A DNA stretch of 47,114 nt from Thermoflexus sp. Lineage in GTDB: Bacteria > Chloroflexota > Anaerolineae > B4-G1 > SLSP01. The position numbers and the translations under genes are program-made. Positions 28,578-38,464 of the stretch are shown here, in pieces. The notes beneath the pieces were generated by a model, which had not been told where the DNA came from, did not search any database, and saw only the letters and a list, made by a program, of their open reading frames with translations. The stretch is taken from NCBI GenBank assembly GCA_020722365.1, contig DYKY01000006.1, positions 1 through 47,114 of the forward strand, written 5' to 3'. Position 1 is the first letter of the stretch; every line of letters starts with the position of its first letter.

Positions 28578-29729
28578 TCAACCGGAGGGGATATTCAAGA
28601 GGTTTTCGATGACGGTCAAGACAGTTTGGGCCGTAGTCTCCCACGAGAAACGCCGCAAGTTGGCCGAGCCTAGCGCGACAAGGGTGCGCCGCAGCATCAT
28701 ATCGTCCAGCAAACGGGTCAGTCCCTCGGCGATGGCAGTCTCGTCCAGTGGGTCGACCAGCAAGCCGCCGTCGCCTACGACCTCGGGCAGGCTTGAGGTG
28801 TTGCTCGCTAGCAGTGGAACGCCGCACGCTTGCGCCTCCAATACGGGAAACCCGAACCCTTCGTACAGCGAGGGATAGGCGAAGACCTGCGCCCCGGAGA
28901 TCAGCGCCGCTTTGTCGGCGTCGGCGACGTAGCCGGGGAAAAGCACCCGTTCCTCCAGTCCTAGTTCGCGCACCCGCGCGCGGATCGGTTCGGCCAGCCA
29001 GCCTGCCGGTCCGGCGAGCACCAACGACAGATCCGGCCTATCCGGTGCAAGGCGCGCAAATGCCTCAATCAGCCGCGCCAGGTTCTTGCGCGGTTGCAGC
29101 CGTCCGATAAAGAGGATGTACGGACCGGGGATGGCGTAGCGCGTCTGCACGGCAGCCAGCGTAGCAGCATCGCGTACCGGCGCGAGGTTACTGTCGTAGC
29201 CGGGATAGGCGACGGTGATTTTTGCAGCGTCGGTCCCATACTCCCGTACCAGCGCGTCCCGTGTAGCGCACGAGTCGGCGAGGATGTGGCTGGCGACGCG
29301 CGCATTCCAGCGGGTGCTCCAGTCCAGGTAAAGGCGCTGGCGACGCGGGTGCGCCTCGGGGAAATAGCAGTAGCCCAGATCGTGGATCGTGACCAACGTC
29401 CGTTTGGGGCGCACCGGCGGGAGGACGTGCGCCGGGACGAAGAGCAGGTCGGGGGCGTGGCGCGCCATCTCCCACGAGAGCCGCACGTGCGTCCACAGCC
29501 GGGGAAAGGGGATCACGCGCAGTTCAGCGCCGGGAAAGGCATCTGGAGCCGGCGTGGAGCGGAAGTACAATCGCGTTCGGCGCTGGGCGCCAAGATGCGG
29601 CAGCAACGCGCGAATCAGGTGGTAGGAGTATCCCTCCGTACCGGTCGGCGCATCGTTGAGCGCGCGGCTGGCATCGATCCCAATTGTCGGCTTTTTGGCG
29701 GTCAAAGACGTTTTCCCACTCATCCTCAT
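28578..29729 (-). CDS. GT4 family glycosyltransferase
   Basis: 383 residues, GT-B fold. The N-terminal half has DASRALNDAPTGTEGYSYHL; the C-terminal half has YILFIGRLQPRKNLARLIEA and the EX7E-type donor site in SLYEGFGFPVLEAQACG. It is expected to use a nucleotide-sugar to build a cell-surface or exopolysaccharide glycan; the sugar is unknown. The stop is seven bases from the MITE-like element. It is closely related in layout to the three GT4 enzymes at 36-41 kb. The start is 29729 or the second Met at 29723. Confidence 0.9.
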   Translation of the reverse strand: MRMSGKTSLTAKKPTIGIDASRALNDAPTGTEGYSYHLIRALLPHLGAQRRTRLYFRSTPAPDAFPGAELRVIPFPRLWTHVRLSWEMARHAPDLLFVPAHVLPPVRPKRTLVTIHDLGYCYFPEAHPRRQRLYLDWSTRWNARVASHILADSCATRDALVREYGTDAAKITVAYPGYDSNLAPVRDAATLAAVQTRYAIPGPYILFIGRLQPRKNLARLIEAFARLAPDRPDLSLVLAGPAGWLAEPIRARVRELGLEERVLFPGYVADADKAALISGAQVFAYPSLYEGFGFPVLEAQACGVPLLASNTSSLPEVVGDGGLLVDPLDETAIAEGLTRLLDDMMLRRTLVALGSANLRRFSWETTAQTVLTVIENLLNIPSG

Positions 29730-29802: not shown

Positions 29803-31011
29803 CTACAGCGTCACCGTCATCCAGGGAATCGGTGTGAGCAGCAAGAAGAAGATGACGACCATCGCCCAGCCCAACGTCTTGCGCTTTGCATCCAGCGGCG
29901 TGAGATCGTTGAGGGGGGCCGGGTGGCGCGGGCCGATGAAGAGGCCCAGCGAGCCGATCATCAGCCAGGTCATCCCGCCGTAGTTTTGCCGCAGCAGCAG
30001 GAAAATGCCCCAGCCCCATATCGCCATCAGCGTGTACCGGGCGATCTTCCACGCTGTACGGCCCCACATCGCGTAGGCGACGTGTCCGCCGTCCAATTGC
30101 CCCACCGGGAAGAGGTTGAGCATCGTCACCAGCAGCCCCACCCATGCAGCGAAGGCGATCGAACCGCCCGCGCTCGGCGGGGAAAGCCATACATCCTCAC
30201 CGGTCGCCTTATCCGGCAGGATGCGCCCGTGGACGATGTACTTGGCGGCGAGGTAAATCACCGAATTCCCCTCCTGGAGGACTTCGACAGACTCACCGGC
30301 GGGAATGTCCATAAACGTCTGCGGCCTCCCCACCTCTGAAAGCGCGAGGCCGAGGAGGAGCAGCGGGATGGCGACGATCAGGCCGCCAATCGGCCCCGCT
30401 ATGCCGATGTCGAAGAGCGACTTGCGGCTGCGCATAGGGCTGCGCTGCACGATCACCGCCCCCAATGTCCCCAGGCTGCCCGGCAGCGGCAGCGGGATGA
30501 AATACGGCAGGCTCGCGGGCGAACCGTGGCGGCGTCCGGCAAAGTAGTGGCTCATCTCGTGCGCCGTGAGGATCGCTAACAAGGTCAACGCAAAAGGCCA
30601 CCCCTTCAAGATGTCTTGGAGTCGCGTGGGGATTACGTTTTCGTGGAACGCGCCGATGTACAGGGTAGAGAGCAGCGTGAGCACGAAAAGCAGGATATTG
30701 ACCCACGGTTTGCCCGTTTTCTTCTCGAACACCGCCGGGATAGCATGCAAGTGATGCTCATCTTCTGCCTTGGTCAAGGACGGTGTGTAGCCCAGGGCTG
30801 CAAAACGCTGTACGATTTCCTCGAAAATGGCGTCCTGATCGCCCTCGACGAGGTGTCCGGCAAACTGCACGGGCGGCTTTTGCTCGTTGGAGAGCACGCG
30901 CACTTCCTCAATGTCCATAAGCGAGCGCAGTGCCGCGCGGAGCCGATCTACCGCCAGCGATTCCGGTACAGGCGCATAACTGCGATGTTCACCTTCAAAT
31001 GGTTCTTCCAC
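29803..31011 (-). CDS. Site-2 protease family intramembrane metallopeptidase
   Basis: 402 residues. A soluble N-terminal domain of about 100 residues is followed by about seven membrane helices. The zinc site is complete: HEMSH at 151-155 and, distal to it, NLFPVGQLDGGH with Asp307. This resembles the EGY1 / ydiL-like plastid and cyanobacterial S2P subgroup. S2P enzymes cleave membrane-anchored transcription factors or signal peptides within the membrane; the target here is unknown. Translation starts at a GTG with AAGGA upstream and overlaps the 3' end of the Lgt-like gene by 17 bases, indicating coupling. Confidence 0.9.
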   Translation of the reverse strand: MEEPFEGEHRSYAPVPESLAVDRLRAALRSLMDIEEVRVLSNEQKPPVQFAGHLVEGDQDAIFEEIVQRFAALGYTPSLTKAEDEHHLHAIPAVFEKKTGKPWVNILLFVLTLLSTLYIGAFHENVIPTRLQDILKGWPFALTLLAILTAHEMSHYFAGRRHGSPASLPYFIPLPLPGSLGTLGAVIVQRSPMRSRKSLFDIGIAGPIGGLIVAIPLLLLGLALSEVGRPQTFMDIPAGESVEVLQEGNSVIYLAAKYIVHGRILPDKATGEDVWLSPPSAGGSIAFAAWVGLLVTMLNLFPVGQLDGGHVAYAMWGRTAWKIARYTLMAIWGWGIFLLLRQNYGGMTWLMIGSLGLFIGPRHPAPLNDLTPLDAKRKTLGWAMVVIFFLLLTPIPWMTVTL

Positions 31012-31756
31012 GGTGTGTTCCTTTCGTCTTGATCAACATTATGAGCATAATGCTTGTTGCCAGCGCCAGGTCGAGTACAGTATCCAGACGTAGATGGCCC
31101 CCTGCTGGCACAATTAGCATCGGCGCGGGATCGGCTCGCAGCAACGTCAGTCCGGCAGAGCCGAGCCAATACAGAGCCAGAGCTAATCCTCCATACTTTC
31201 TCAGAGCTACCGCCAGCAGCGCCAGGATTAACGCCCACCCTGCGCCTAACGGCTGGACGGCATAGCGCAGGGTCACCGTCTGGTAAACGTCGGGCAGCAG
31301 CGCGGTGAACCGGCGCGTGCCATCCAGCGCGGGGACGATCTCATGTCCCCAGGCGCAGCCGGCATTCACACAGCCCCACCAGGCCCCCGCCGCAACAAAG
31401 AGCACTGCCGGCGACAAAAAGCTCACGATCATCGATACAGGTCGGTGCGCCATGGCGGACCACAACCCGAACACGAGCAACGCTCCGAGCATTGCGCCGC
31501 CGCCATACAATCCGCCAACGCGATCCACTCGCAGACTCAGCACCGGGTGCTGCGCGAAATACGCCGCATGGCCGAACACGTAGCCCGCCCGTCCACCGAT
31601 CAATGCCGCCAATGCCACACCCCAAATCCAGGGACGTATGGTTCGGCGGTCGAATCCGGCGTGTGGCGCCCGCAGCCACAGCCACAACCCCGCGATAAGC
31701 GACCCGGCGGCGACCTTCAGCGTATACACGGAGATCCACCACAACCCTATGCGCAT
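30995..31756 (-). CDS. Divergent Lgt-like membrane protein
   Basis: About 253 residues from the ATG at 31756. Seven or so membrane helices share the pattern of prolipoprotein diacylglyceryl transferase, including GGRAGYVFGHAAYF, GGLYGGGAMLG and GCVNAGCAWG. In true Lgt the block corresponding to GGLYGGG carries a His (FHGG) and the block before NAG carries an Arg (ARIG or RIGN); here I read Tyr-Gly-Gly and Trp-Trp instead. So the two residues known to be needed for catalysis appear missing. It may be a non-catalytic or differently acting relative. It overlaps the S2P gene. Confidence 0.7.
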   Translation of the reverse strand: MRIGLWWISVYTLKVAAGSLIAGLWLWLRAPHAGFDRRTIRPWIWGVALAALIGGRAGYVFGHAAYFAQHPVLSLRVDRVGGLYGGGAMLGALLVFGLWSAMAHRPVSMIVSFLSPAVLFVAAGAWWGCVNAGCAWGHEIVPALDGTRRFTALLPDVYQTVTLRYAVQPLGAGWALILALLAVALRKYGGLALALYWLGSAGLTLLRADPAPMLIVPAGGHLRLDTVLDLALATSIMLIMLIKTKGTHRGRTI

Positions 31757-31842: not shown

Positions 31843-31878
31843 ACAACAAAGCCCCTCTCTGGAGAGGGGGGCTGTTTG
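31843..31878 (-). terminator. Terminator after rplL
   Basis: On the minus strand a GC-rich stem (about AGCCCCCCTCTC with GAGAGGGGCT, two-base loop, one mismatch) follows the rplL stop by about 20 bases and ends in a T/G-rich run TTTGTTGTTT. It separates rplL from the Lgt-like gene. Confidence 0.8.
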
Positions 31879-31898: not shown

Positions 31899-32276
31899 TT
31901 ACTTCAGTTCGACGACGGCGCCGGCCGCTTCGAGCTTGGCCTTGGTATCCTCGGCCACTTCCTTGCTCACGGCCTCGACGACGTTGGAAGGCGCGCCTTC
32001 GACCAGTTCCTTGGCCTCTTTCAGACCCAGGTTGGTGATCTGGCGGACGACCTTGATGACCTCGATCTTCTTCGGGCCAAAGTCCTTGAGGACCACGGTG
32101 AACTCGGTCTGCTCTTCTTCCGGCTCGGCTTCCACGGCCGCCGGGGCCGCACCGATCATCGCCACGGGCGCGGCGGCGCTCACACCGAGCTTATTCTCGA
32201 GCGCCTTCACCAGTTCGGCGGCCTCGAGCAACGTCAACGCGCTAATTTCCTCGACCAGCTTTGCTAAATCTGCCAT
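31899..32276 (-). CDS. rplL: 50S ribosomal protein L7/L12
   Basis: 125 residues, normal length. The N-terminal dimerisation helix region (residues 1-33), an Ala/Glu hinge at about 35-56, and the C-terminal factor-binding domain with [20 protein letters not shown] and [13 protein letters not shown] are all present. It forms the stalk that recruits translation factors together with L10. It is the last gene of the operon here; rpoB does not follow. Confidence 0.97.
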
Positions 32277-36215: not shown

Positions 36216-37355
36216 ATGACGATCTATGTAGACATTTCCGCCGCTGCACATCGTCGCGCCGGGTTGGGGCGGTATGCCGAAAACTTGACGCGCGCTCTAG
36301 TTCCACGCCTCACGCATAAGCTGGCGCTGTTTTACAACCGGGAGAAAGGCGTGACATTGCCACCTGGGTTGGAGCACCTCCCGTCACGCACGGTCGCCCT
36401 CAGCTACAAATCCTGGCGGATGCTGGTGTGGGCAGGACAACTGGCGCGCATTCCCTTCAACCGTCTGATACCGGATGCGGCGCTGTTCCATGCCGCCGAG
36501 CATCTGTTGATGCCGCTAAAAAACATCCCGACCGTATTGACCGTCCACGATTTGATTTTTCGCTACTTGCCGGAGCATCACAAGCCGCTCAATCGCTGGT
36601 ACCTGAATTGGACAATGCCGCTATACTGCCGCCGAGCCAATCACATTATCGCCGTCTCGGAAGCCACGCGGAGCGATATCATCAATGCCTATCACATTCC
36701 ACCGGAGAAGATTTCCGTGATCTACGAAGCAGCGGACCCCCGCTTCGAGCCGCAATTGCACACCGTTGTGGAGGCGATGCGCGCACGGTATCATCTGCCG
36801 GAGCAATACCTTTTATACGTAGGCACTATTGAACCGCGCAAAAATCTGGTGCGACTCTTGAAAGTGTGGGAACCGCTTTATCAGGCACAAGAGGTACCCT
36901 CTCTGGTGATCGCCGGTCACCAGGGCTGGCTCTCGGAAGATTTCTTCACGGCGCTAGAGAATAGTCCCGCGCGTGATGGCGTGTTGCTCACAGGGTACTT
37001 CCAAGAAACGGATTTGCCGGCGCTCTATTCCGGGGCAACGGCGATGATTTTCCCCAGTCTCTATGAGGGGTTTGGGCTGCCGCCGTTGGAGGCAATGGCC
37101 TGCGGCACGCCGGTGCTGTGCTCTAACGTGTCTTCGCTGCCCGAAGTCGTGGAGGACGTGGCTTTGATGTTCGATCCGACCGACGACGAAGCGATGGCCC
37201 AGGCCCTACGGCGTATTGTGAGTGACCAGGATCTACGCACTACTCTCAAGGAAAAGAGTCTCTATCAGGCTGCGCGTTTCTCGTGGGGTCGAGCGGCACA
37301 AGAGACGAAGCACGTGTATGAGCAGGTGTTATCCTCATGCCACGCTACGCCCTAG
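36216..37355 (+). CDS. GT4 family glycosyltransferase
   Basis: 379 residues, GT-B fold. The N-terminus [22 protein letters not shown] and [16 protein letters not shown] are typical; the C-terminal half has [18 protein letters not shown] and [19 protein letters not shown] with the donor-binding Glu pair. First gene of the divergent glycan cluster, directly behind a sigma-70-like promoter without a leader. It overlaps the next GT gene by 19 bases, so the two are coupled. Confidence 0.92.
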
Positions 37356-38464
37356 ACGCCCGCACGGCGACGCCACATTTTCCCGGTATTGGACGTTACG
37401 TCACCAATCTTGCCCGTGCGCTGATTCCGCAGCTTGCATCGGATGAACATCTCATTGTATTTTTCGACCCCGCGTATCCTCTGGATATGCCATCCGGTGA
37501 TGCTGTACATAGCCAGGCTGTCGATGTTTCTCCCTTCTCCCCGCGCCAGCAATGGGTGATCCCGCGCTTGCTGCACAAGCACAAAGCAGATGTGTATCAC
37601 AGCGCCTACTACCTGATGCCTTATGTTACCGGTATCCCCACGCTGCTTACACTCTACGATCTTATCCCGATTCATTTTCCCGAACACAGCACACTCAAGG
37701 CGCGCCTGCTCTTTCGCTGGACGACGAGGTTGGCGCTGCGGGTGGTGCGACACACGCTGACCATTTCTGAAGCGACGCGGCGCGATTTTCTGGCCTGTTT
37801 TCCCCTGCGACCTGAGCGGATCACGGCGATCCCGCTGGCAGCCGATCCGGCTTTCACCCCGCAATCGCCGGACACTGTCGCGGCCTTGCGCACACATTAT
37901 CGCCTGCCAGACAGGTTTATCTTGTACCTGGGAAGCAACAAGCCACACAAAAACCTCGTGCGGCTTATCGAAGTCTGGGCCGTTGTACAGGCTGAAGCGC
38001 CGAACTATACGCTCGTTATTGCAGGTGCATGGTCGCCGCAGCACCCGGAGCCGCGCCAGCGCGCGCAGGCTCTTGGAATCGACAATCGCGTGTGCTGGCT
38101 AGGGCCGCTGCCCGACGCGGATTTGCCCGCGCTGTATACGGCAGCCGACGTGTTCGTCTTCCCTAGCCTGTATGAAGGATTTGGTCTGCCGGTGCTCGAG
38201 GCCATGGCGTGCGGGACGCCGGTCGCCTGCGCCAATACCTCATCGCTGCCGGAGGTCGCGGGAGAGGCGGCGGTGTTGTTCGAACCAACGCGAACCGGCG
38301 CCATCGTTGATGCCCTGCGACGACTGCTCGGCGATGCCGGTCTGCGCGCTGACCTGCGTCAACGGGGTTTGGCACAAGCCGCTAAATTTTCCTGGGTGCG
38401 CACCGCGCAGGAGACGCTTGCGCTGTATCGTGTAGAGAATCACGTACTTGGGTCATCCATATAG
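37337..38464 (+). CDS. GT4 family glycosyltransferase
   Basis: 375 residues, clear paralogue of the preceding enzyme. [22 protein letters not shown] opens the acceptor half; FILYLGSNKPHKNLVRLIEV and [19 protein letters not shown] form the donor half. It is expected to add a second sugar of the same surface glycan. The start overlaps the previous stop region. Confidence 0.92.
   Translation: MPRYALDARTATPHFPGIGRYVTNLARALIPQLASDEHLIVFFDPAYPLDMPSGDAVHSQAVDVSPFSPRQQWVIPRLLHKHKADVYHSAYYLMPYVTGIPTLLTLYDLIPIHFPEHSTLKARLLFRWTTRLALRVVRHTLTISEATRRDFLACFPLRPERITAIPLAADPAFTPQSPDTVAALRTHYRLPDRFILYLGSNKPHKNLVRLIEVWAVVQAEAPNYTLVIAGAWSPQHPEPRQRAQALGIDNRVCWLGPLPDADLPALYTAADVFVFPSLYEGFGLPVLEAMACGTPVACANTSSLPEVAGEAAVLFEPTRTGAIVDALRRLLGDAGLRADLRQRGLAQAAKFSWVRTAQETLALYRVENHVLGSSI

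Follow-up and report, generated by a model that had tools for sequence, protein, structure and literature searches.

The reference for Lgt, the phosphatidylglycerol:prolipoprotein diacylglyceryl transferase, is the E. coli enzyme (PDB 5azb/5azc). In this enzyme a phospholipid is held at a first site by Y26 and arm-2, and the donor ester is activated at a second, catalytic site lined by R143, E202 and R239; the R143A mutant is inactive, keeps the pattern of stabilisation by phospholipid and shows raised thermostability (PMC4728403). A subgroup of Lgt homologues lacking both R143 and R239, Anaerolineales included, has been reported, for which another acyl substrate or mechanism was proposed (PMC13251419; mBio, May 2026). 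The main text of that report deals with neither genomic context, clade structure nor the pattern of residue retention. A literature search for Lgt pseudoenzymes detected none.

Here we describe lgtL, a gene for an Lgt-family membrane protein in a window (the whole stretch of DNA that was analysed) of 47,114 nucleotides from Thermoflexus sp. LgtL is a PF01790 homologue from which the same two arginines are absent, and the class sampled here includes the Anaerolineales; as the main text of PMC13251419 defines the subgroup, this locus is a further member of a kind already reported, and a protein of this kind is not new. The present analysis goes further in resolving the clade, in recording which residues are retained and in showing that a true Lgt coexists with LgtL, and it contributes an estimate of selection and the genomic context.

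Organization of the lgtL locus

The genes are aligned on the minus strand in the order rplL, lgtL, S2P and GT, with the following features (positions in the window).

31899..32276, minus strand: rplL (L7/L12), conserved neighbour upstream of lgtL
31852..31869, minus strand: terminator-like hairpin with CTTTGTTGTT after it, in the interval from rplL to lgtL; consensus match only
30995..31756, minus strand: lgtL, from ATG at 31756 to the stop at 30995, 253 aa, Lgt-family membrane protein (product P0001, LgtL)
30995..31011, minus strand: stretch of 17 nt shared by lgtL and S2P, each gene being read in its own frame
29803..31011, minus strand: S2P gene, intact, site-2 protease (M50), from GTG at 31011 to the stop at 29803, 402 aa (product P0002)
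28578..29729, minus strand: glycosyltransferase gene (GT; family 4-like), following S2P family-wide with or without lgtL

The 17-base overlap noticed in the sequence-only reading (31756–30995 against 31011–29803) was confirmed, and an AAAGGA-type ribosome site can be read in front of the GTG of the S2P gene. A sigma-70 scan found no promoter at the locus. P0002 matches Peptidase_M50 (PF02163) with an E-value of 2.4e-18 and shares with M50 site-2 proteases the HExxH and LDG motifs, present as HEMSH and as GQLDGGH with the third zinc ligand; a search by family gave two further M50 matches in the same genome. The ribosomal protein block is surrounded by three glycosyltransferase genes of similar type (window 36216-38464 and 28578-29729).

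Between the copies of this genome (G000) and the relative G003, dN/dS by the Nei–Gojobori method was highest for lgtL (0.24), followed by the glycosyltransferase gene (0.12), S2P (0.064) and rplL (0.024). The lgtL gene is evidently under purifying selection, yet it is the least constrained gene of its block.

Residues lost and retained in LgtL

LgtL, like E. coli Lgt, exceeds the curated cut-off of PF01790 (LGT), with 43.2 bits against 24.9 (E 3.9e-11). By TIGR00544/PRK00052 it is not an Lgt equivalog, scoring 28.3 bits against a cut-off of 118.9, and other NCBIfam models gave far lower scores. Annotation based on Pfam would label the gene as lgt, though the presumed lipid-activating residues are missing. 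With E. coli Lgt 5azb as the ruler, R143 is replaced by W126, N146 by C129, E151 by C134, R239 by Ser and E243 by Thr, and the E202 equivalent is also absent; the motif reads A-W-W-G-C-x4-C-A-W-G. The two arginines taken as invariant in functional Lgt, R143 and R239, are thus both gone. In contrast, Y26, R73, G98-G99, G154, R246 (R207 in LgtL) and the Asp after R246 are common to both proteins. An AlphaFold2 model of P0001 built from only 3 sequences, too shallow an alignment, gave a pLDDT of 47.

The sequence-only reading had described LgtL as apparently lacking the catalytic residues, and the losses at R143 and R239 bear this out. Its argument from the histidine was dropped: Tyr in place of His had been taken as a sign of lost activity, and canonical Lgts have Tyr there too. 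At the H103 column, LgtL itself has Gly (GGLYGGGA), its taxonomic family mostly Pro, Ser or Gly, and 21 of 40 class members His. The residue is Tyr, Phe or Trp in every one of the 23 canonical Lgts from relatives (Tyr in 20) and Tyr in this genome's own canonical Lgt, so that loss of H103 is not diagnostic; many true Lgts with Tyr, Trp or Phe at this position are also described in the main text of PMC13251419.

The true lgt of the genome was located at G000:C241:4052–4831, as the check proposed for it demanded, and lgtL is not the sole lgt. Its product scores 237.7 bits against PF01790, compared with 43 for LgtL, and retains R143, N146, R239, E243 and R246. Two lspA genes are also present. Lipidation of lipoproteins would be carried out by this true Lgt and not by LgtL. 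Two canonical-type lgt genes, each above 220 bits, were also observed close together in two relatives, about 100 nt apart in G004:C245:8896-10515 (L058, L084) and about 1.7 kb apart in G008:C439:885-4090. A PF01790 match was absent from G006, G020 and G022, genomes of genus g4 that are 72-95% complete, each with two lspA genes; these absences are probably assembly gaps, and may reflect loss of lgt.

The LgtL clade and its possible function

Of 40 close relatives, 27 gave a match to LgtL, with canonical Lgts accounting for a few of the lowest-scoring ones; a class-wide search gave strong matches across many families. R143 was missing at 39 of 40 class-level loci (Trp in 36, Ser in 3), a non-random set drawn mostly from the better-scoring matches; the remaining one is a canonical Lgt. 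In a phylum-wide sample R143 was kept by 27 of 30 homologues, and one of the three exceptions came from the Anaerolineae-type class. The 64 aligned R143-less sequences come from many Anaerolineae families, and in a maximum-likelihood tree, the root of which is not known, a branch with values of 100/98 separates them from all R143-bearing sequences. Since the latter all stand on one side of this branch, a single loss suffices. The LgtL family is ancient, and Anaerolineae-type Chloroflexota would have inherited it vertically as a second protein of the Lgt family.

Residues of this clade fall into two groups. R73 and G154 are invariant (64/64 each) and G99 (63/64), D248 (61/64) and R246 (60/64) nearly so; G99, R195, D248, R246, G98 and Y26 are each retained in 88–98% of the 64 sequences. 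Those replaced include R143, E202, R239, N146, E151 and N149, with E202, R239 and E243 mostly so; among class-level members E243 persists in about a third and R239 in a few. R143 is gone from all 64, and the 63 other members lack it in the same column as LgtL, indicating that the residue has not simply shifted in position. Cys occurs at both 146 and 151 in 53 sequences, at neither in 9 and at one in 2; the joint presence or absence is significant (Fisher p 2e-9) before correction for ancestry. Because the two cysteines are kept or lost together, a C129-C134 disulfide is suggested for LgtL, the sequences being related and therefore not independent.

From this pattern, we infer that lipid entry and the lid are preserved in LgtL and the chemistry gone. 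LgtL would still adopt the 7-TM membrane fold of Lgt, and its lipid-entry side (Y26, R73 and G98-G99 of arm-2) and head-domain clamp (G154, R246 and D248) would be retained, with the putative disulfide as a stabiliser; the catalytic pocket for diacylglyceryl transfer has been lost (R143 to Trp, E202 and R239 gone, N146 and E151 to the Cys pair). LgtL is then a candidate non-catalytic membrane protein that binds phospholipid or lipopeptide. Such retention and loss is what would be expected of a lipid-binding pseudoenzyme, or of an altered transferase. The protein is likely to be non-canonical and probably no transferase. Taken as a whole, an ancient LgtL that has lost the transfer pocket, binds a lipid or lipopeptide and is encoded in a family-specific operon is the reading that we favour, at slightly better than even confidence.

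One objection to a non-catalytic LgtL is that a Cys-bearing, R143-less protein could catalyse something else. LgtL might still be a transferase that uses another lipid donor or mechanism, for instance via R246/D248 and the Cys pair, in agreement with the proposal made for R143/R239-less Lgts in the main text of PMC13251419. The class-wide conservation under selection, the near-invariance of the polar R73, R195, R246 and D248, and the retention of His103 and Glu243 by some class members are all consistent with this alternative. However, R143, R239 and Y235 are situated where the donor ester is activated, substitution of R143 or R239 kills E. coli Lgt, 9 of the 64 members are without the Cys pair, which hence is no universal nucleophile, and a true Lgt is present in the genome. 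We regard an altered transferase as possible, though rather unlikely.

The observation that lgtL diverges faster than its neighbour genes and is missing from some relatives could also be explained if it were a functionless, decaying duplicate. This is very improbable, given the dN/dS ratio, reading frames that are open nearly everywhere, and the class-wide presence with invariant residues. Matches of the lgtL family with in-frame stops were seen in two genomes, G059:C142:15676-16356 (one TGA) and G246:C15:46412-47026 (two TAA), and are probably pseudogenes or assembly errors.

Since LgtL and a true Lgt coexist across a bacterial class, LgtL offers a natural case for studying the role of the Lgt fold in the absence of transfer chemistry, and the retention of lipid entry and head clamp with loss of the catalytic pocket makes this question directly testable.

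Paralogues of the GCxxxGCC type (L125-L133) resemble LgtL in carrying Cys in both column 146 and column 151, and differ from it in keeping R143 and, in almost all cases, R239. Derivation of LgtL from these paralogues, considered for the shared Cys pair, was rejected after the tree placed them with canonical Lgt. N146C is also found in M. smegmatis MSMEG_5408 and Leptospira Lgt. Seven loci (L125, L126, L127, L128, L129, L131 and L132) have the form GRxGCxxxGCCYG, with R143 and R239 kept and Cys at 146, 151 and 152, often as two copies within 3 kb (two copies each in L126, L127 and L132).

Linkage of lgtL with the site-2 protease gene

In the taxonomic family of the window, the recurrent gene order is secE-nusG-rplK-rplA-rplJ-rplL-lgtL-S2P-GT. 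S2P directly follows lgtL in 13 of 15 full-length cases, spanning about ten genera; in G001, contig ends cut both genes, which is compatible with adjacency and no proof of it. The spacing ranges from −32 to +3 nt in most of the relatives and from 83 to 121 nt in three. From the overlap, the sequence-only reading had concluded that the two genes are coupled. Operon-like packing is indeed seen in the family, but the exact −17 overlap is common to G000 and G003 only, other relatives ranging from −32 to +121 nt, and it was dropped as a mark of conserved coupling.

The same reading had proposed that LgtL is a non-enzymatic, lipoprotein-binding partner presenting substrates to S2P; we considered this adaptor as one that binds either lipoproteins or signal peptides. 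Lgt and S2P both act on signal-peptide-like helices, and the adjacency, mostly as an overlap or within 3 nt, agrees with such an adaptor. The tight packing of the pair in most of the family also speaks against the reading that we favour, for a purely incidental neighbour need not be so packed. The link is, however, broken in both directions. In G002, G006, G018, G020 and G022, rplL and S2P are directly adjacent with no lgtL between them. Conversely, G007 and G010 have lgtL with S2P located elsewhere; in the two sister families (f2/f3), 6 of 10 loci keep lgtL downstream of rplL, S2P is on another contig, and no relative has an adjoining S2P; and no S2P of this kind was found near lgtL at any of the 40 class-level loci. 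A dedicated LgtL-S2P system, judged by co-occurrence and linkage across lineages, was not borne out, the linkage being confined to one taxonomic family. Furthermore, dN/dS of lgtL is about four times that of S2P, and the S2P-GT and rplL-lgtL links are equally conserved.

The adjacency of lgtL and S2P is thus genuine and resembles an operon, but it is limited to one lineage, and its specificity does not exceed that of rplL and lgtL or of S2P and GT; rplL is a steadier neighbour of lgtL than S2P is. Because the link is broken both ways, a dedicated protease-presenting role is unlikely, and we consider the substrate-presenting adaptor improbable. What survives of that proposal is the lost pocket, the true lgt and lspA genes elsewhere, the purifying selection and the operon-like packing in this family, not the specific partnership with S2P. 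Its stronger form, in which a dead Lgt would have become, in this family, a cofactor of S2P that is coupled to it in translation and supplies it with signal peptides of lipoproteins or with lipidated remnants, appears quite improbable; no earlier Lgt pseudoenzyme would then have served intramembrane proteolysis as an adaptor. We know of no M50 protein that requires an Lgt-like partner. For the favoured lipid or lipopeptide binder, the overlap with S2P would reflect the family-specific operon rplL-lgtL-S2P-GT, with no dedicated protease adaptor.

At the class-level loci (L168-L206), outside the taxonomic order of the window, lgtL often has a nucleotidyltransferase gene upstream (at 12 of the loci) and a nitrilase-like gene downstream (at 14), both named by eye only. 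Neither of these neighbours pointed to a link with lipoproteins.
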